The translations under genes and the position numbers were made by a program. Below the pieces are notes generated by a model. The model did not search any database, was not told the origin of the DNA, and was given only the letters and a program-made list of their open reading frames with translations. DNA of 64,000 nt from Chitinophagaceae bacterium (GTDB lineage Bacteria; Bacteroidota; Bacteroidia; Chitinophagales; Chitinophagaceae), in contig JALHNJ010000006.1 in assembly GCA_022843585.1 (NCBI GenBank), forward strand, positions 124,001-188,000, given 5' to 3'. Of the stretch, positions 8,358 through 16,590 are shown piece after piece. The stretch's first letter is position 1. Each line of letters begins with the position of its first letter.

Positions 8358-8810
8358 TTATGTTAGCGGTACAGAAAAACTAACTTTTTTTGGCGGCAAA
8401 CATTTTTTATCATCACAGGTTTGATACTCTACAGTTCCTGAAAAGTTGGTTTTTACCTTCCCTTTCATTTTTATTTTCTGTACAAAATTAACCGTGTTTG
8501 AATACTGATGAGCGGATATGCCTAAAGCTGCATCTTTCATTACTTCCATTTTACCCACCTCTTTAACTTTACCATCCAGACTAAATAAAGGATTGGGATT
8601 AATTACAAATTCTGTTGGATCAATGATTGCGTCTGCCGGCTGCTTTTGAGAATATAAGTGCCACTTATTTTGTATAGTGGCCTTCATATGAATCTCATAG
8701 TTCTTATCATCAATTTTCTTGGCAGTAAATGTCCATGTTACAGGATTTAATTGAGCCTGGCTCATAAGAGTGGTGGCCAAAATCACTGTTATAAATAATA
8801 ATTTCTTCAT
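8358..8810 (-). CDS. Secreted free-standing DsbD N-terminal-domain protein
   Basis: A 150-aa exported protein: signal peptide residues 1-19 (ends MSQAQ), then one immunoglobulin-like domain of the DsbD-N type. The motif CDDKKCLPP (Cys132 and Cys137) follows YQT, as in the active-site loop of E. coli DsbD-N (YQ-G-C...C-YPP). It lies directly upstream of the large dsbD-like gene on the same strand and probably in one operon. The two proteins look complementary: the large one lost these cysteines and the small one has them. It probably receives electrons from the CVNC thioredoxin domain and passes them to periplasmic substrates; that transfer is inferred, not seen. Confidence 0.8.
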   Translation of the reverse strand: MKKLLFITVILATTLMSQAQLNPVTWTFTAKKIDDKNYEIHMKATIQNKWHLYSQKQPADAIIDPTEFVINPNPLFSLDGKVKEVGKMEVMKDAALGISAHQYSNTVNFVQKIKMKGKVKTNFSGTVEYQTCDDKKCLPPKKVSFSVPLT

Positions 8811-8836
8811 TTGTTTATTTGGTTAATTCATGTACG

Positions 8837-8917
8837 CAAAAATCCTGCTTTTGTGTATTCCAATCTGTTAAAGTATTGAATATGCAAATTTACATATCAA
8901 AATCCTGATTTTTTGTA
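8837..8917. promoter_or_regulatory. Two copies of a dyad motif around a -7 box upstream of the dsbD operon
   Basis: CAAAAATCCTGCTTTTGTGTA-like sequence at 8837-8857 and a near copy at 8898-8917 share the form CAAAA-tCCTG-TTTT-TGTA, each a weak dyad. Between them, on the minus strand, TAAATTTG (8892-8885) is a perfect TAnnTTTG -7 box about 75 nt before the ATG at 8810. The arrangement looks like an operator pair. The rest of the 366-bp gap 8811-9176 shows no gene. Confidence 0.35.
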
Positions 8918-9176
8918 TGGAATATGACAAAACCCGTCAATTTAAGGATAAGTAGGTTTTGGAGCTGTACAGGTTGCTATAGGATAGCTTTTGAGCCCTG
9001 TTTGATAAAATTATATTCTCTGACGGTCATTTTTCTACACTCACTCTTTATCCGTAACAAATACAAGTTATAAAGGTAAAAGAGTATGATGCCGCACCTC
9101 CTTTGGCTTTTAGCCCCCCAATCTGCTGATTGTCCCTAAGAATAATGACCAAGAAGAGAAAGAATGCTACTCAATT

Positions 9177-9419
9177 CTATTTATTGAGTATGGAAACCAA
9201 CTTATGATTGCGGAAAAATTCTACAATCTCTACATCCAGAGCCTTGCTGATTTTTCTTAATGTAAGAACAGTAATATTACTTTTTCCAGCTTCTATCCTG
9301 GACATACTGGCCTTTTCAAAATTGCAACGAATGGCCAACTCATTCTGTGTAATTTTTCTTTTAATCCGTAATTCTCTTACTCTTTGGCCTATACATACCA
9401 AAAATTTTTGATTTGTCAT
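9177..9419 (-). CDS. Small XRE-family DNA-binding regulator
   Basis: An 80-aa single-domain helix-turn-helix protein of the Cro/C1 (XRE) class. The HTH covers about residues 10-65: RVRELRIKRKITQNELAIRC, then KASMSRIEAGKSNITVLTLRKISKALDV. No sensor or oligomerisation domain follows, only a short tail. A perfect 16-bp palindrome 82 bp upstream (9501-9516) is a candidate autoregulatory site. It is transcribed away from the signalling cassette to its right; its targets are unknown. The size and lone HTH would also fit a toxin-antitoxin or controller protein, but no toxin or restriction gene is adjacent. Confidence 0.85.
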   Translation of the reverse strand: MTNQKFLVCIGQRVRELRIKRKITQNELAIRCNFEKASMSRIEAGKSNITVLTLRKISKALDVEIVEFFRNHKLVSILNK

Positions 9420-9500
9420 TTTAAAAAAATCTAATTAGCAAAATATCTGCAATGCTATTTAGCAGAAGTGTTGTTTTATATGACAATTTTCAGGTTCTCA

Positions 9501-9516
9501 ACTGATTTAAATCAGT
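9501..9516. promoter_or_regulatory. Perfect 16-bp palindrome, candidate XRE operator
   Basis: ACTGATTTAAATCAGT is fully self-complementary and lies 82 bp upstream of the XRE gene start. Small XRE proteins commonly bind such dyads as dimers and repress themselves; binding here is inferred. Confidence 0.4.
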
Positions 9517-9854
9517 AAAAGATGATTAGATAAAAAAACGTACCCCAATCTGTAGAATAATTAAATTTTTATATGTTGATTTAAAAAGCAACATTTGTGT
9601 AAGGTTTGGTCTGTTTTTAGAATTATATATTCAATTATTCAAAAGCATGTTGCTTTTTTAACTGATAAGAGAATAAGGTGTTTCCTGATTAGTAATACGT
9701 TTAATAAACGATTGCCACCATGAAATTTTCTATCAAAAAAATACTACACTTTATTATTACACTTGCCCTCCCCGAATTGGGTAAAACTATATGTATTTAT
9801 ATAGCCAGAACGAAACAAGGCAACACTTTCAATAAGCAAAAATTTAATCCTTTA

Positions 9855-9903
9855 CAACGGGTCTATATGCTGACGGGGAATTTGTTGGGATATAGACCTG
9901 TTG
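9855..9903. repeat. Long inverted repeat in the leader region of the receptor kinase
   Basis: CAACGGGTCTATAT (9855-9868) pairs with ATATAGACCTGTTG (9890-9903) over 14 bp with one G-U pair in plus-strand RNA, leaving a 21-nt loop. It could be an RNA structure or a protein-binding dyad. Confidence 0.5.
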
Positions 9904-10101
9904 AACTAATAAATACACATCATCATCACTAAGTAGATTTTGTAAATGTATCCCGGTATGAACGATAGATTCAGGCCGGGAATTAAATGTGATGAAAAAA
10001 GGAACGAATGATTTCCCTGTAATGCCCAAAAAGTAGCACTGAAAAGGATTGTTCCTATCAGCTCATAAAAGAAAAAATATCATAGCCATAAATTAAACAC
10101 T

Positions 10102-13100
10102 ATGGATCAGGTAGGTGAATTTTTTAGCCGCTTATTTAGCAGTAGCGACTGGCCGCCCCGCTGGCATTGCGGGGAATGGACATCCTTTCATGGCTGGTTG
10201 TATATCATCAGTGATTTACTAATATGGTCTGCGTATTTCACTATCCCAATTGTAATCATCCGGTATCTTTCAAAAAAGAAGGATATTCGGTTTGTAAAAT
10301 TATACTTTTTATTCGCCGCTTTTATATTGGCTTGCGGTGCTACTCACCTTTTAGATGCTATTGCTTTCTGGATTCCTGCTTATCGTTTAAGTGCACTGTT
10401 CCGGTTTGTAACTGGTATAATAAGTTGGGTTACCGTTTTCTACCTGATAAAAAATCTTCCTCAGATTTTTTCTTTAAAACCACAAAAAGCCTTAGAAGCG
10501 GAAATAGAACAACGGATTATATCAGAAGAAAAATTCAGGGGCTTATTAGAAGCCGCACCTGATGCCATGGTAATTGCCAATGAAAAAGGACTGATTATAT
10601 TAGTTAACCGGCAAACGGAAAAGCTTTTCGGCTACACTAAAGATGAACTTATCAGCAAGCCAGTTGAAATACTTATTCCTACCTCGCTGCATCATAAACA
10701 TGTAGCTCACCGGGAAAAATATACTCAGGATCCGCATGTCCGTAGTATGGGTGCAGGGCTGGAACTGGAAGCATTGAAAAAAGATGGCAGTAAATTTCCG
10801 GTAGAAATAAGTTTATCGCCATTAGTTACAAAAGATGGCACTTTAATCTCCGCTTCTGTTCGTGACATAACAGAGCGAATAAAAGCGGAAAAAAAAATAA
10901 AAGAATTTCAGTACTTCTTTAACCACAGCAATGATCTTTCCTGTATTGCCAACAATGAAGGATTTTTTGAAATTGTTAATCCAAGTTTTACTAAGATATT
11001 GGGGTATTCCGAAAATGAATTATACAATCATTCATTTATAGATTTTGTTCATCCGGATGATATTGCTGCCTCACTGGAAATATACGGGCAGTTGAAATCA
11101 GGTGCCACTGTACTGCATTTCACTAACCGTTACCGCAAAAAAGATAACAGCTACCTGTGGCTGGAATGGAATGCGACTCCCAATCCCATTACCGGAAAAT
11201 TGTATTGCATAGCAAGGGATATTACCGATCGCAAAAAAGCGGAAGATGCGTTGAGTAAATTAAATGAAGAACTGGAGCAAAGGGTGGAAGAAAGAACAAT
11301 AGAAATAGAAAAAAATGAAAAACGTTTTAGAGCATTAATTGAGAATAGTCATGACATTATAACCCTGATGAACGACCAGTTCAATGTCATTTATAGAAGC
11401 CCTTCCGCATCCCGTACCAACGGCTGGAGCCATGAAGAATTAAAAGATGTTAGCATATTAAAAAATATCCATCCTGCTGACATTGAAATTGCCAAAGAGA
11501 TTATGCAGGAATTAATAAAAAATCCGGGTAAAGAACTCCATGTATCATTTCGCATTCAGCATAAGGATAAGCATTATCTGTGGGTTGAAGGCACTGTTAT
11601 TAATTTGCTGCATGATGCAGATGTAAAAGCAATTGTATTCAACTTCAGGGATATTACGCAACGAAAAAAACTGGAAACCCTGCTGCATAAAGCCAACACC
11701 CTTGCACGAATGGGAAGTTGGGAGGTAGATCTGGTGAACGAAACCGTTTATTGGAGTGATATTACAAGGGAAATTCATGAAACGGAATACAAATATGTTC
11801 CGGATTTATCCACAGCTATCATTTTTTATAAAGAAGGGCCCGGTAGAGACTTAATTACCCAAAAAGTAAAAGAAGCTATTGAATCGGGTAAGCCATGGGA
11901 TGAAGAGTTGCAAATTATTACAGCAAAAAATAATGAAAAGTGGATTCGTACGATCGGTGAAACTGAATTTATAAATGGTAAATGCGTTAGAATATACGGT
12001 AGTTTTCAGGACATTCATCAACGAAAAGAAGCGGAAGAAAAAATAATAGCCAGCGAAAAAAGGTTTCGCACCACACTGGATAATATGCTGGAAGGGGCAC
12101 AAATAATTGGGTTCGATTGGCGATATATTTATATAAATGATTCATTTGAAAAACATGCAAGATACAGGCGGGATGAAATGATCGGCTATACAGTAATGGA
12201 GAAATTTCCCGGTATTGAGCAAACGGAAGTCTACAAAGTATATGAACGTTGTTTTGCTGAACGGGTATCTATTCATCTTGAAAATGAATTTAAATTTCCC
12301 GACGGTACGATTGGATGGTTTGAGCTTAGTTTTCAGCCTATACCCGAAGGAATTTTTATTCTATCTATCGATATTACGGAGCGTAAAAAAGCCGAAGCTA
12401 ACATCATCCGTGCCGAGACCAACTACCGGGAAATATTTGACAAAGCAAGCGATGCCATATATGTACACGAAATTGATACTGGCAGAATTATTGAAGTTAA
12501 CCAGAAAGCTGTTGCTATAACTGGTTTTAGTAAAGAAGAAATATTGAATAGCAACCCGGAAATATTTACTTCTGATAATCCTGAATATACAGTAACTCAT
12601 GCCGTAACCTACTTGCAAAAAGCAGCAGCCGGTGAGCCTCAACTTTTTGATTGGTTAACACGGAAAAAAGACGGTTCTGATAGCTGGATGGAAGTAAATT
12701 TAAAAAAAGCAACCATTGCGGGAGAAGAACGGATACTTGCCTTTTTCCGAGAAATAAATGACCGCAAAAAAGCACAATTGGAAGTACAAAAATTAAATGA
12801 AGAGCTGGAGCAGAAAGTTATCAGCCGTACCGAACAATTAAAACGAACGAATGAAGAACTGGAAGCATTCTCTTATTCCGTTTCTCATGATTTGCGGGCA
12901 CCATTGCGGGGTATTATTGGCTTTACCAATATCCTGGAAGAAGATTATAGCAGTAAACTGGACGATGAGGCTATGCGAATAACATCTGTCATCAAAACCA
13001 ATACAATGAGGATGGCCAATCTTATAGATGATTTGCTGGCATTTTCCCGTATGGGCAGACAAGAGTTACTAAAAGCACCAGTCGATACCAATACAATGGT

Positions 13101-13539
13101 GCGGGAAATTATTGATGAACTAAAACCAACAAATAAAAATCCACAACTGCAATGGCATATTGAACCGTTACCGGAAATTGATGCAGATATTGCAACTATG
13201 CGGCAGGTGTGGACCAATCTAATAAGTAATGCCATCAAATATTCATCAACTAGCCAAAAGCCACAAATAACAATAGGTCATTATACTGAAAAGCAGCAGC
13301 AAATATTTTTTGTAAAAGATAATGGAGTAGGCTTTAATAACGAATACCGGAACAAGCTCTTTAGAGTTTTCCAACGTTTGCACAACTCACAGGATTTTGA
13401 GGGTACAGGAATAGGACTGGCTATTGTAGAAAAAGTAATTACCAAACACGGTGGTAAAGTTTGGGCTGAAGCCGAAGTAAACAAAGGCGCCTGTTTCTTT
13501 TTTAGCCTGCCTGTTACCAATGAAAAAAATGAAAAATAA
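10102..13539 (+). CDS. Ethylene-receptor-like multi-PAS sensor histidine kinase
   Basis: 1145 aa. Residues about 33-120 form three membrane helices resembling the N-terminal ethylene-binding domain of plant ETR1: YIISDLL...AYFTIP, then FILACGATHLL. Asp38, Tyr45, Ile75, Cys78 and His82 fall at the same relative spacing as ETR1 Asp25, Tyr32, Ile62, Cys65 (copper ligand) and His69 (copper ligand). Six PAS domains follow (about 140-260, 265-380, 405-520, 525-645, 650-770, 775-900), most ending in DIT(E/D/Q)RKKAE-type linkers. A coiled coil (NEELEQKVISRTEQLKR) leads to HisKA with phospho-acceptor His929 (SVSHDLRAPLR) and an HATPase_c domain (NLISNAIKYS, DNGVGF, GTGIGLAI). There is no receiver on this protein; a stand-alone one follows 24 nt downstream. 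Copper or ethylene binding is inferred from residue conservation. The domain could instead sense another small hydrophobic ligand. Confidence 0.93.
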   Translation: MDQVGEFFSRLFSSSDWPPRWHCGEWTSFHGWLYIISDLLIWSAYFTIPIVIIRYLSKKKDIRFVKLYFLFAAFILACGATHLLDAIAFWIPAYRLSALFRFVTGIISWVTVFYLIKNLPQIFSLKPQKALEAEIEQRIISEEKFRGLLEAAPDAMVIANEKGLIILVNRQTEKLFGYTKDELISKPVEILIPTSLHHKHVAHREKYTQDPHVRSMGAGLELEALKKDGSKFPVEISLSPLVTKDGTLISASVRDITERIKAEKKIKEFQYFFNHSNDLSCIANNEGFFEIVNPSFTKILGYSENELYNHSFIDFVHPDDIAASLEIYGQLKSGATVLHFTNRYRKKDNSYLWLEWNATPNPITGKLYCIARDITDRKKAEDALSKLNEELEQRVEERTIEIEKNEKRFRALIENSHDIITLMNDQFNVIYRSPSASRTNGWSHEELKDVSILKNIHPADIEIAKEIMQELIKNPGKELHVSFRIQHKDKHYLWVEGTVINLLHDADVKAIVFNFRDITQRKKLETLLHKANTLARMGSWEVDLVNETVYWSDITREIHETEYKYVPDLSTAIIFYKEGPGRDLITQKVKEAIESGKPWDEELQIITAKNNEKWIRTIGETEFINGKCVRIYGSFQDIHQRKEAEEKIIASEKRFRTTLDNMLEGAQIIGFDWRYIYINDSFEKHARYRRDEMIGYTVMEKFPGIEQTEVYKVYERCFAERVSIHLENEFKFPDGTIGWFELSFQPIPEGIFILSIDITERKKAEANIIRAETNYREIFDKASDAIYVHEIDTGRIIEVNQKAVAITGFSKEEILNSNPEIFTSDNPEYTVTHAVTYLQKAAAGEPQLFDWLTRKKDGSDSWMEVNLKKATIAGEERILAFFREINDRKKAQLEVQKLNEELEQKVISRTEQLKRTNEELEAFSYSVSHDLRAPLRGIIGFTNILEEDYSSKLDDEAMRITSVIKTNTMRMANLIDDLLAFSRMGRQELLKAPVDTNTMVREIIDELKPTNKNPQLQWHIEPLPEIDADIATMRQVWTNLISNAIKYSSTSQKPQITIGHYTEKQQQIFFVKDNGVGFNNEYRNKLFRVFQRLHNSQDFEGTGIGLAIVEKVITKHGGKVWAEAEVNKGACFFFSLPVTNEKNEK

Positions 13540-13563
13540 TTTTATCATCTAAAAAGAAAAAAA

Positions 13564-14007
13564 ATGCCACTCAATTCTGTAGACATATTACTTGTTGAAG
13601 ATAATATGAATGATGCGGAGTTAACTATTCGTGAACTTAAAAAACATAATCTCTCCAATAAACTCTTTCATGTAAGAGATGGAGAAGAGGCTCTGGAATT
13701 TATTTTTGCCACTGGCAAATTTGCCGGGCAGCGACAGGTGGACTATGTACCCAAAGTAGTGCTATTGGATATACAGATGCCAAAAATAAATGGTATAGAA
13801 GTATTGCAACAAATAAAAGAAAACGAACGGACAAAAATTATTCCGGTGGTTATGCTTACTTCTTCTAAGGAAGACCCCGATATACAACGATGCTATGCAC
13901 TGGGGGCCAACAGTTACATAGTGAAGCCTGTGAATTTTGAAGGCTTTGCCGAATCTATAAAAAACCTGGGCTTTTACTGGTTATTATTGAATCAGCCTCC
14001 TCATTAA
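13564..14007 (+). CDS. Rcp1-like single-domain response regulator
   Basis: A 147-aa stand-alone receiver domain with no output domain. Phospho-acceptor Asp69 (VVLLDIQMP), acidic pair Glu12-Asp13 (LVEDN), the Thr/Ser switch (MLTSS) and Lys (VKPV) are all present. The start ([16 protein letters not shown]) and the ending [12 protein letters not shown] are those of the Rcp1 group, known as partners of phytochrome-type kinases in cyanobacteria. It lies 24 nt after the receptor kinase and 6 nt before the next kinase, so the three genes probably form one operon, with this protein as phosphate acceptor or shuttle. Confidence 0.93.
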
Positions 14008-14013
14008 TCAAAT

Positions 14014-15873
14014 ATGACAAAGTCACTAAAAATATTAATGCTGGAAGACAGCCACACTGATGCTGAAATAGTACAACGAGTGCTAAAAAGGGATTATCAA
14101 CCCTGTATTTTCCATCTTGCCATGTCGGAGGAAAGCTTTATAAAAGCCCTGGATAGTTTTCAACCTGATGTTATACTCGCCGATAATTCATTGCCACAGT
14201 TTGATGCGGCAAAAGCATTGATAATAACGAGGCAACATAAATTAGAGATCCCCTTCATCATGGTAACTGGGACCATGTCTGAAGAATTTGCTGCCGGAAT
14301 CATCAAAAGTGGTGCGGATGATTATATTCTTAAAGATAGATTAGCAAGATTGCCTGCGGCTATTGATGCTGCGTTAAAACAACGGAGCAGTGAAAAAGAA
14401 AAAAAAGAAGCAGAACAAAAAATATTGCAATCAGAAATTCACCTTCGTGCTATTTTCGAAAACACTTCAGAAGGTTTTCTGTTAATGGACACTGATGGCA
14501 TTGTAAAAAAGTTAAATAGCAAGGCTGGTGAATATTCTTTTTTTAATCAAGACAGAGAAATACAAGTGGGGCATCCCATTTACGACTTTATTGAAGAAGA
14601 AAGGAAAACTGTATTTAAAAAAATACTATCAAAAGTATTGGAAGGAAATACTGTGGAATACCAACGGTCATTCGAAATGGGTGATGGCAATACAAGATGG
14701 CTTGATTTTTCTGTAACGCCGGTTTGGGAATCCGGTAATATAAATGGTATTTGTATTTCCGGACGAGATATTACCGCACAAAAAACTGCGGAAGAAAAAT
14801 TAAATAAAAATTTTATTGAAAAGCAGGCACTGGCACAGCGAATGTCGGCTATCCTCAATACCCTACCGGCAAATATTGCCCTGCTGAATGAAAATGGGAT
14901 TATAGTAGATATAAATGATGCATGGAGGAATTTTGCAGACGACAACGGATTTATTGGAAATAATTATGGAATAGGGGATGATTATATTGTTATTACAAAA
15001 AAATCAGTTGGAAATGGCAAGGCAGATGGCTTAGCAGTTGCCGAAGGAATAGAATCTGTTCTTAAAGATAAAGTCAAAGAATTTGTTTTTGAGTATGCCT
15101 GCCACTCTCCAGCATTAAAGAGATGGTTTAGGATGGTAGTATCTCCTTTGCAGGGAAAAGAATATTTAGGGGCCGTAGTTATGCATATTGATATTTCCGA
15201 AATACGAAAGCTGGAAAAGGAAAGGCTGGAAAACAAAATAAATGAGCAAAAAAAGGTTACCAAAGCTATGCTCCAGGCACAGGAGAATGAACGCAATGCA
15301 ATAGGAATTGAGCTGCATGATAATGTGAACCAGATACTGGTGGGTACCAACATGCTTCTGCGAATGGTAAAAGAAAATCCTAAAAAAATAGAAGAGCTAC
15401 TCCCCTCCTGTATAGAAAATATCAAAAGTGCTATTCAAGAGAACAGAAAAATAGCTCATGAGCTGGTAGCACCCGACTTGGGAGCTGAAACACTATTACA
15501 GCAACTGTTCCGGCTAAACCAAACAATGCTGGAAACAGCAGGTATGGAAACTTTTACTCTTCATGATGATTATAGCGAAACCTTATTAAGTGATGACTTA
15601 AAATTGGCTGTATACCGGGTAATGCAAGAGCAATATACTAATATAATAAAGCATGCTAATGCCCGAAAGGTGGAAATTACGTTATCAACAATCGCCAATA
15701 TTTTTACATTAAGAATAATTGATGATGGCAAGGGCATGCTTAACAATAATATCACTAACGGTATTGGATTACGAAATATCAAATCCCGGATCAGTGTATT
15801 TGAAGGTATTGTAAATATTGAATCAATGCCGGACAAAGGCTTTGCTCTCAATATAGAAGTTCCAATTTTGTAA
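14014..15873 (+). CDS. Receiver-PAS-PAS-HisKA_3 histidine kinase
   Basis: 619 aa, soluble. An N-terminal receiver (about 5-122; Asp57 in VILADNSLP, Thr85 in MVTGT, Lys107 in ILKDRL) is followed by two PAS-like domains (about 140-262 and 275-400), a coiled coil and a NarX/DegS-type kinase core: HisKA_3 with His435 (ERNAIGIELHDNVNQIL) and HATPase_c (about 520-619, DDGKGM and NGIGLRNI). This kinase class normally pairs with LuxR-type (NarL) response regulators; none is adjacent. The N-terminal receiver suggests it is itself controlled by phosphorylation, perhaps from the receptor kinase upstream, which would make the cassette a relay. The stop is 17 nt from the convergent purQ stop, with no terminator visible. 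Confidence 0.9.
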   Translation: MTKSLKILMLEDSHTDAEIVQRVLKRDYQPCIFHLAMSEESFIKALDSFQPDVILADNSLPQFDAAKALIITRQHKLEIPFIMVTGTMSEEFAAGIIKSGADDYILKDRLARLPAAIDAALKQRSSEKEKKEAEQKILQSEIHLRAIFENTSEGFLLMDTDGIVKKLNSKAGEYSFFNQDREIQVGHPIYDFIEEERKTVFKKILSKVLEGNTVEYQRSFEMGDGNTRWLDFSVTPVWESGNINGICISGRDITAQKTAEEKLNKNFIEKQALAQRMSAILNTLPANIALLNENGIIVDINDAWRNFADDNGFIGNNYGIGDDYIVITKKSVGNGKADGLAVAEGIESVLKDKVKEFVFEYACHSPALKRWFRMVVSPLQGKEYLGAVVMHIDISEIRKLEKERLENKINEQKKVTKAMLQAQENERNAIGIELHDNVNQILVGTNMLLRMVKENPKKIEELLPSCIENIKSAIQENRKIAHELVAPDLGAETLLQQLFRLNQTMLETAGMETFTLHDDYSETLLSDDLKLAVYRVMQEQYTNIIKHANARKVEITLSTIANIFTLRIIDDGKGMLNNNITNGIGLRNIKSRISVFEGIVNIESMPDKGFALNIEVPIL

Positions 15874-15890: not shown

Positions 15891-16565
15891 TTAAGAAACC
15901 AGTTGGTCCGCCATCAACAATGTTTGAATAATTTCTCTTCCATCGATATTACCTAACACTGTAGAACAAGCTCTTTCCGGATGCGGCATCATACCAAATA
16001 CGTTGCGGTTAGCATTACAGATGCCAGCAATATTTCTTATTGCCCCGTTTGGATTAGAGGCTTCTGTTCTATTACCCTTTTCATCACAGTAATAAAATAT
16101 TACTTGTCCGTTAGCTTCTAATTCATTCAACGTTTTTTCATCTGCATAATAACGGCCTTCGCCATGTGCCACTGGTATCTTATAAATTTTCCCCGTATGA
16201 TTAGTAATAAAAACGTTTTTGCAAACAAATTGTTGATTGGCATTTCTCAATAACCCTCCGGGCAGTAAATGCGACTCACATAATATCTGAAAGCCGTTGC
16301 AAACACCAAATACTTTTCCTCCGGCATTGGCAAATTCAATAACACTCTGCATCATCGGGCTAAAACGGGCAATAGCACCACATCTTAGATAGTCTCCATA
16401 AGAAAAACCTCCCGGTAAAACGATACAATCTTCGGTACTAAACTTGCTTAAATCTTTGTCTTTATGCCAGAGCATAGAAACATCCTGCCCCAAATCATAA
16501 CTAAGCGCATCAAACATATCTCTGTCGCAATTAGAGCCAGGGAAAACAACAACGCCAAATTTCAT
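15891..16565 (-). CDS. purQ: Phosphoribosylformylglycinamidine synthase, glutaminase subunit
   Basis: PurQ (224 aa) hydrolyses glutamine and feeds ammonia to PurL in the fourth step of de novo purine synthesis. It is a class I glutamine amidotransferase: nucleophile Cys89 (FGVCNGFQIL), His195 and Glu197 (MMPHPER), and the N-terminal MKFGVVVFPGSNCDRD typical of PurQ. The frame stays open 49 codons further upstream, but the family start and a TATCTTTG -7 box 25 nt before it place the start at 16565. Neither purL nor purS is nearby. The small stand-alone form means PurL should be the non-fused type, encoded elsewhere. Confidence 0.95.
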   Translation of the reverse strand: MKFGVVVFPGSNCDRDMFDALSYDLGQDVSMLWHKDKDLSKFSTEDCIVLPGGFSYGDYLRCGAIARFSPMMQSVIEFANAGGKVFGVCNGFQILCESHLLPGGLLRNANQQFVCKNVFITNHTGKIYKIPVAHGEGRYYADEKTLNELEANGQVIFYYCDEKGNRTEASNPNGAIRNIAGICNANRNVFGMMPHPERACSTVLGNIDGREIIQTLLMADQLVS

Positions 16566-16590
16566 ATTTTGATTTTCTGTATGTGAGCAG

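Follow-up and report, generated by a model that had tools for sequence, protein, structure and literature searches.

An ethylene-receptor-type sensor kinase

We analysed a stretch of 64,000 nucleotides from a Chitinophagaceae bacterium (assembly GCA_022843585.1, contig JALHNJ010000006.1, forward-strand positions 124,001 to 188,000), referred to below as the window, in which an open reading frame (ORF) at 10102-13539 on the plus strand starts with ATG and encodes a protein of 1145 aa identified as a sensor histidine kinase of the ethylene-receptor type. The gene and its parts are listed below with the source of each assignment.

10102..13539, plus strand: ethylene-receptor-type sensor histidine kinase, ETR1_N - six PAS - HisKA - HATPase_c (ORF, Pfam)
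10153..10179, plus strand: N-terminal loop PPRWHCGEW, residues 18-26, with H22 and C23 ahead of helix 1 (alignment)
10189..10473, plus strand: ETR1_N membrane domain, residues 30-124 (Pfam; AlphaFold helices)
10213..10215, plus strand: Asp38, equivalent to ETR1 Asp25 (alignment)
10333..10335, plus strand: Cys78, equivalent to ETR1 Cys65, a copper ligand (alignment)
10345..10347, plus strand: His82, equivalent to ETR1 His69, a copper ligand (alignment)
10402..10404, plus strand: Arg101, equivalent to ETR1 Lys91, the proposed salt-bridge partner of the Asp (alignment; PMC11819568, PMC13012798)
10525..12771, plus strand: six PAS domains (PAC-type junctions at residues 255, 373, 517, 637, 757 and 884; outer limits approximate)
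12862..13056, plus strand: HisKA domain, residues 921-985, with SVSHDLRAPL (Pfam)
13186..13518, plus strand: HATPase_c domain, residues 1029-1139 (Pfam)

Comparison of the N-terminal region with the profile of the ETR1 domain bore out the original prediction, made from the bare sequence, that it resembles the plant ethylene sensor: residues 30-124 match Pfam ETR1_N (PF25487) with 105.1 bits (E-value 2.4e-30), against a cut-off of 27 bits. A search of the whole 4.49-Mb genome with this profile gave a single match, of 110.8 bits; the 14 control genomes had no match, so the assignment lies far beyond chance. All seven ethylene-binding residues of ETR1 (D25, Y32, I35, P36, I62, C65 and H69) are kept, as D38, Y45, I48, P49, I75, C78 and H82, when the domain is compared with the ETR1 sequence. 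The predicted spacing was likewise recovered, D38, Y45, I75, C78 and H82 being set apart exactly as D25, Y32, I62, C65 and H69, with an Asp-to-Cys distance of 40 in both proteins. By sequence, the membrane domain belongs to the ETR1_N family with its set of seven binding residues complete.

In order to place these residues in a structural context, the membrane domain was modelled with AlphaFold2 from a 64-row alignment (mean pLDDT 79.3, pTM 0.65). Three helices were predicted, at residues 29-57, 65-87 and 94-123, in agreement with three hydropathy peaks in the kinase and no further one above the threshold used. In the model, helix 1 holds Asp38, Tyr45, Ile48 and Pro49, helix 2 holds Ile75, Cys78 and His82, and helix 3 holds Arg101. 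A sequence search of the PDB at E-values up to 10 gave no solved structure of the membrane domain.

The remainder of the protein has the layout of a two-component kinase, with the phospho-acceptor His of HisKA, an HATPase_c domain (both domains above their Pfam cut-offs) and an adjoining response regulator gene, and the six PAS domains first proposed are present as six PAS/PAC junctions. The suggestion of a phytochrome-like core stood for the kinase portion, which among solved structures has a protein named 'Histidine kinase' as its best match (E-value 6e-43) and bacteriophytochromes second (E-value 1e-33), but not beyond it, as the 12 Pfam families reported at an E-value of 0.001 include neither GAF nor PHY. 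Phytochrome identity, which would call for a PAS-GAF-PHY chromophore module, was thereby ruled out. The kinase core and the response regulator resemble those of bacteriophytochrome kinases with Rcp-type regulators, and the resemblance is limited to these two parts.

A three-gene operon at a variable site

Two further genes follow closely in the same orientation.

13564..14007, plus strand: CheY/Rcp-like response regulator with a single domain, separated from the kinase gene by 24 bp (ORF, Pfam, structure matches)
14014..15873, plus strand: kinase with receiver, PAS, HisKA_3 and HATPase_c domains, separated from the response regulator gene by 6 bp (ORF, Pfam)

The response regulator (147 aa) has the CheY-type regulators 5ic5, 5brj and 3heb as its best matches among solved structures, with RcpB, RcpA and Rcp1 within the best eleven; the product of the third gene is 619 aa long.

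Comparison with congeners outlined the segment in which the operon lies.

8358-8810, minus strand: DsbD_N-like gene, left flank of the segment (congener comparison)
8895..15873, no strand assigned: segment without counterpart in the eight congener loci compared (edges approximate, the left edge varying from 8748 to 8895 by congener)
15891-16571, minus strand: purQ, right flank of the segment (congener comparison)

The purQ and DsbD genes share a contig in 24 of the 28 congeners searched, and the gap between them is below 1 kb in 23 of the 24 assessable congeners, ∼14 kb in genome G849 and 7.6 kb in the window. In seven of the eight loci compared, purQ and the DsbD_N-like gene are immediate neighbours in that order; the eighth locus, that of G849 (L240:795-14166), has an unrelated stretch of ∼13.6 kb between the two, with ORFs that read as ECF sigma, anti-sigma, SusC/SusD-like and thioredoxin-like genes. 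With the purQ-dsbD interval short in 23 of 24 congeners and occupied by unrelated genes in G849, it appears to be a variable site that carries the sensor operon as cargo in the window. Among the ORFs listed for this site we saw no mobility gene, no tRNA that could mark an insertion was found in the 64-kb window, and in G+C the three genes of the operon do not stand out from their surroundings. G+C falls to 0.32-0.34 at 8.5-10.5 kb of the window, and in this low-G+C stretch upstream of the operon there is an 80-aa ORF (9177-9419, minus strand) that reads as an XRE-type helix-turn-helix regulator.

An operon present in one of 42 genomes of the genus, its site occupied by different cargo in another species, might be a horizontally acquired set of genes that has degenerated or fallen out of use. 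Its three genes, however, are intact and tightly spaced, with kinase and receiver domains above cut-off and no internal stops, and disuse or decay seems to us scarcely credible.

Relatives in Chitinophagaceae and beyond

The placing of this family in plants and cyanobacteria had to be widened. The ETR1-type domain is known in Proteobacteria, with putative receptors known in other bacterial phyla (PMC11819568), and in Bacteroidota it is patchy: we found ETR1_N in 70 of 394 Chitinophagaceae genomes (68 above the cut-off) and in 21 of 395 genomes across the phylum. The window receptor is real but not unprecedented, such receptors being scattered through the Chitinophagaceae.

In order to compare them, 123 distinct domains were collected from 161 domain-bearing frames, together with 120 loci with called neighbours (window included; neighbour genes were called by ORF length). 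The named loci are the best 80 of 140 relatives matching the patterns [DGN][WF]PPRWHC and FHGWL[YF]II, an uneven sample. The others come from 70 of the 71 family places above cut-off besides the window's own and from 10 of the 19 genomes of other families in the phylum with a match; left out were G113 and G140 (weak, below cut-off, with stops), G773 (family, above cut-off) and the other nine of those 19 genomes. The equivalent of ETR1 His69 is kept in 101 of the 123 domains and replaced in 22 (Tyr in 15, Phe in six, Gln in one), and all seven binding residues are exact in 81, the window counted. The ETR1 Lys91 position is Arg in most of the surveyed Bacteroidota domains. An acid at ETR1 position 25 and a base at position 91 occur together in 112 of the 123 domains and are both missing in six, with the acid alone in three and the base alone in two; this covariation, represented by one independent pair on supported branches, fits the salt-bridge model, in which Lys91 is proposed to bond with the Asp (PMC11819568; PMC13012798).

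A single-domain regulator comes next on the same strand at 43 of 99 His69-bearing loci (window counted) and at none of the 21 His69-less loci. Both halves of the third operon gene match one protein within three genes at 26 of the 99 (window counted; 11 on the same strand) and again at none of the 21. The nearest domains, among the best 80 of the 140 relatives, are those of Terrimonas pollutisoli and Ferruginibacter homologues (L064, L065 and L066; 77-78 % identity), which are long kinases of 912 to 1453 aa with a response regulator next, as in the window; a Pfam scan of L065 gave ETR1_N, PAS, HisKA and HATPase_c.

With six PAS domains in the window kinase, the membrane domain could be mainly an anchor or dimer module, the real signals (light, redox or small molecules) being read by the PAS domains. 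SynEtr1 of Synechocystis is bifunctional for light and ethylene (PMC11819568), and the relatives differ both in length, from 232 (a short frame) to 1532 aa, and in PAS content, with none reported in L128 and several in L065, all of which would suit such an arrangement. An anchor, on the other hand, needs no near-invariant residues, and in a comparison of 91 His69-bearing relatives (the His defined the set, and ten distant His-bearing rows were omitted) Cys78 is kept in 91 and Asp38 in 85. We regard a mere anchoring role as very unlikely.

Comparison with characterized receptors

The closest CHARACTERISED relative was the A. brasilense Sp7 receptor AzoEtr1 (L224), located by a tblastn search of plasmid records in which 18 records matched. 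Its 529-codon frame aligns with window residues 11-145 (31 % identity, E-value 3e-20), and the same seven positions align in it. Residues 1-130 of AzoEtr1 bind ethylene saturably, a small response regulator is encoded next to it, and the system affects biofilm formation and root colonisation (PMC11819568). Common to both systems are an N-terminal ETR1_N-type domain with the seven residues, PAS and HisKA/HATPase_c domains and a small regulator gene next door; the Cys-x-x-Trp of the N-terminal loop is also common to AzoEtr1 and the two cyanobacterial domains aligned. The two systems differ in that AzoEtr1 has one PAS domain and the window kinase six, in the loop (PHGVC-type in AzoEtr1, PRWHCG in the window) and at ETR1 position 91 (Lys and Arg, respectively). 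Furthermore, AzoRR-etr1 gives no blastp match to the window regulator at 1e-3, and a third kinase gene, present in the window operon, is unmentioned in section 6 of PMC11819568.

SynEtr1 and GeiEtr1/2 of Geitlerinema, which we compared by their descriptions alone, likewise carry an ethylene-binding domain on a sensor kinase (PMC11819568, PMC6682694), and SynEtr1 is a histidine kinase that signals to a response regulator; their hosts are photosynthetic, however, and SynEtr1 is also a photoreceptor. Arabidopsis ETR1 shares the seven binding residues at identical spacing, but is a eukaryotic endomembrane receptor with a fused receiver and Lys91, and its signalling is for the most part independent of the histidine kinase (PMC11819568).

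A probable copper-dependent receptor for ethylene

Taking these observations together, we think it likely that the window kinase is a Cu(I)-dependent receptor for ethylene or another small alkene, with the Rcp-like regulator as its output. Ethylene or a small alkene is a supported best guess for the signal because the domain directly matches that of AzoEtr1, an experimental ethylene binder; copper, ethylene and the inhibitory direction of the response are carried over from AtETR1, SynEtr1 and AzoEtr1. In the proposed mechanism, the three helices would hold Cu(I) through Cys78 and His82 of helix 2, with Asp38 of helix 1 positioning the His and pairing with Arg101 of helix 3. Binding of ethylene or a similar small alkene to the copper would loosen the His-copper contact and alter helix packing, and this change, passed through the six PAS domains, would alter HisKA/HATPase autophosphorylation, most likely lowering it. 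Phosphate would pass to the Rcp-like regulator encoded next, and the third gene, a receiver-PAS-HisKA_3 kinase, probably relays the signal onward, as gene order suggests. Three copper-ATPase genes above cut-off in the window genome indicate that copper handling exists in the host, such genes being also present in 13 of the 14 control genomes.

Several findings weigh against this interpretation. ETR1_N was found in one of the 42 genomes of the window's genus, so the domain is dispensable there, and the regulator gene is missing from the next position at 56 of the 99 His69-bearing loci, so the pairing of kinase and regulator genes is not universal. No gene in the operon names the output of the pathway. 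Lys91 of ETR1 is not conserved in the window kinase, where Arg101 takes its place; this position keeps its positive charge and lies outside the seven binding residues. The AlphaFold model, used here for the placement of the helices, is a monomer with a pLDDT of 79, and for ETR1 itself electron paramagnetic resonance data agree better with another model than with the AlphaFold one (PMC13012798). We rejected 1-aminocyclopropane-1-carboxylate (ACC) deaminase as a sign of ethylene metabolism: its best match genome-wide reached 22.6 bits against a cut-off of 392, similar sub-cut-off matches occurring in six of the 14 controls, and an independent link to ethylene metabolism is therefore missing.

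Ethylene perception via a named receptor has been demonstrated in very few microbes, namely Synechocystis and a mycorrhizal fungus before Azospirillum (PMC11819568). An intact operon in one species, not found in 41 other genomes of its genus, offers a clean gene-removal and gene-gain test of the role of ethylene sensing outside plants and cyanobacteria.

Relatives linked to iron and copper transport

The more surprising material is found in relatives of the window kinase. Fourteen of the 22 His69-less genes lie downstream, on the same strand, of a protein of the FeoB cluster (702-717 aa), 13 of them immediately and one a position further (L140 (9983-11026), L122, L123, L130, L133, L134, L136, L141, L142, L157, L202, L204, L209 and L210). 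One FeoB-cluster protein was scanned with Pfam and contained FeoB_N, Gate and FeoB_C. Counted over loci with upstream genes, feoB precedes 14 of 21 His69-less and none of 94 His69-bearing domains; the gap to the ETR1_N gene is 98 to 162 bp in the five cases measured. The feoB-linked ETR1_N proteins are 341-362 aa long. Pfam scans of three of them, L140, L157 and L210, and of L205 (His69-less, with no feoB call) gave ETR1_N, a match of PAS type and HisKA, the last scoring under its cut-off in L140 and L157, with HATPase_c absent from all four. By alignment, all 14 feoB-linked proteins keep the phospho-acceptor motif and end soon after it. Genes that read as HesB/SufA and IscS are divergent next door at seven of the 14 loci, with IscU also at five. 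One of the 14, L123, comes from a record titled Azovibrio restrictus (JANLJF010000063.1); its domain is of the Chitinophagaceae type, and the record name looks wrong.

Of the 51 columns conserved in at least 85 % of the 91 His69-bearing rows, P18, R20, H22, C23 and His82 are those kept by fewer than half of the feoB-linked rows; besides His69, the 14 feoB-linked proteins have thus lost the larger part of the RWHC loop. Cys23 is present in 97 of 101 His69-bearing rows and three of 22 others, two of the three being feoB-linked. A second tree was built without five very long-branch rows (L210, L211, L212, L213 and L217). A single origin of the His69-less forms was not rejected (p-AU 0.351, 118 rows), so the changes in His69, loop and feoB linkage are correlated in perhaps one lineage and are not repeated natural experiments. 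Co-loss of His69 and C23, and FeoB linkage, were accordingly rejected as series of independent events, there being one to three independent pairs on supported branches; for FeoB linkage, one pair was in the expected direction and two were without difference. The Fisher p of 3e-13 for FeoB linkage counts relatives as independent and is not to be taken at face value.

In a single genus from another Bacteroidota family, a protein of 1532 aa (L217:6440-11038, genome G371) combines HMA, E1-E2 ATPase and HAD hydrolase domains with ETR1_N (868-963), PAS, HisKA and HATPase_c, and contains the motifs CPC (at 449) and CxxC (at 16). G556 has an ETR1_N match in an open frame of like length (1567 codons) and G839 one in a 1028-codon frame near a contig end, both known from domain match and frame length. 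The copper ligands are kept in L217, but its affinity for ethylene may be low because the Asp is Asn and Lys91 is Asp; an Asp-to-Asn change lowers ethylene affinity about 100-fold (PMC13012798). As the plant copper ATPase RAN1 interacts with ETR1 in bimolecular fluorescence complementation (BiFC) tests (PMC6656775), a fusion of the L217 type would be the RAN1-ETR1 pairing in one chain.

Such findings bear on whether the window kinase might instead sense copper or periplasmic redox state, its Cys/His site being read by metal occupancy and ethylene being incidental. The core of the domain consists of the copper ligands, and both the fusion to a CPC-motif P-type ATPase with HMA and the missing His of the feoB-linked subfamily tie the domain to metal traffic. 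We nevertheless judge a copper or redox sensor unlikely: the window protein and most of the 123 domains retain those ethylene-binding residues that are not ligands (Asp, Tyr, Ile, Pro, Ile), AzoEtr1 binds ethylene with the same residue set (PMC11819568), and none of the genes read next to the window operon was recognised as a copper gene. A receptor for ethylene or a small alkene remains our preferred reading of the window kinase.

For the family as a whole, the feoB linkage and the ATPase fusion suggest a tie to metal supply and an additional part of the copper site at H22/C23. It is possible, if rather doubtful, that ETR1_N in bacteria serves generally as a membrane sensor coupled to metal, in which the Bacteroidota outer loop R20-x-H22-C23 would belong to the copper-loading site; the feoB-adjacent subfamily would have become an iron-linked sensor on losing P18, R20, H22, C23, His82 and the ATPase domain, and another lineage would have hard-wired the domain to a copper-type ATPase as a one-protein RAN1-ETR1 pair. 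The survey makes testable which residues hold copper and how the metal is loaded. From the natural variants, the His and Cys of the outer loop are predicted to be important along with the His of helix 2, and the ATPase fusion brings copper delivery and sensing together in one protein. In open-literature titles and abstracts we found no report of ETR1_N from Chitinophagaceae, none of the domain next to FeoB and none of its fusion to a copper ATPase, which is not proof of being unpublished.

On an Acaryochloris plasmid (L226:2552-5034), an ETR1_N kinase is annotated as several separate ORFs and is possibly a broken gene.

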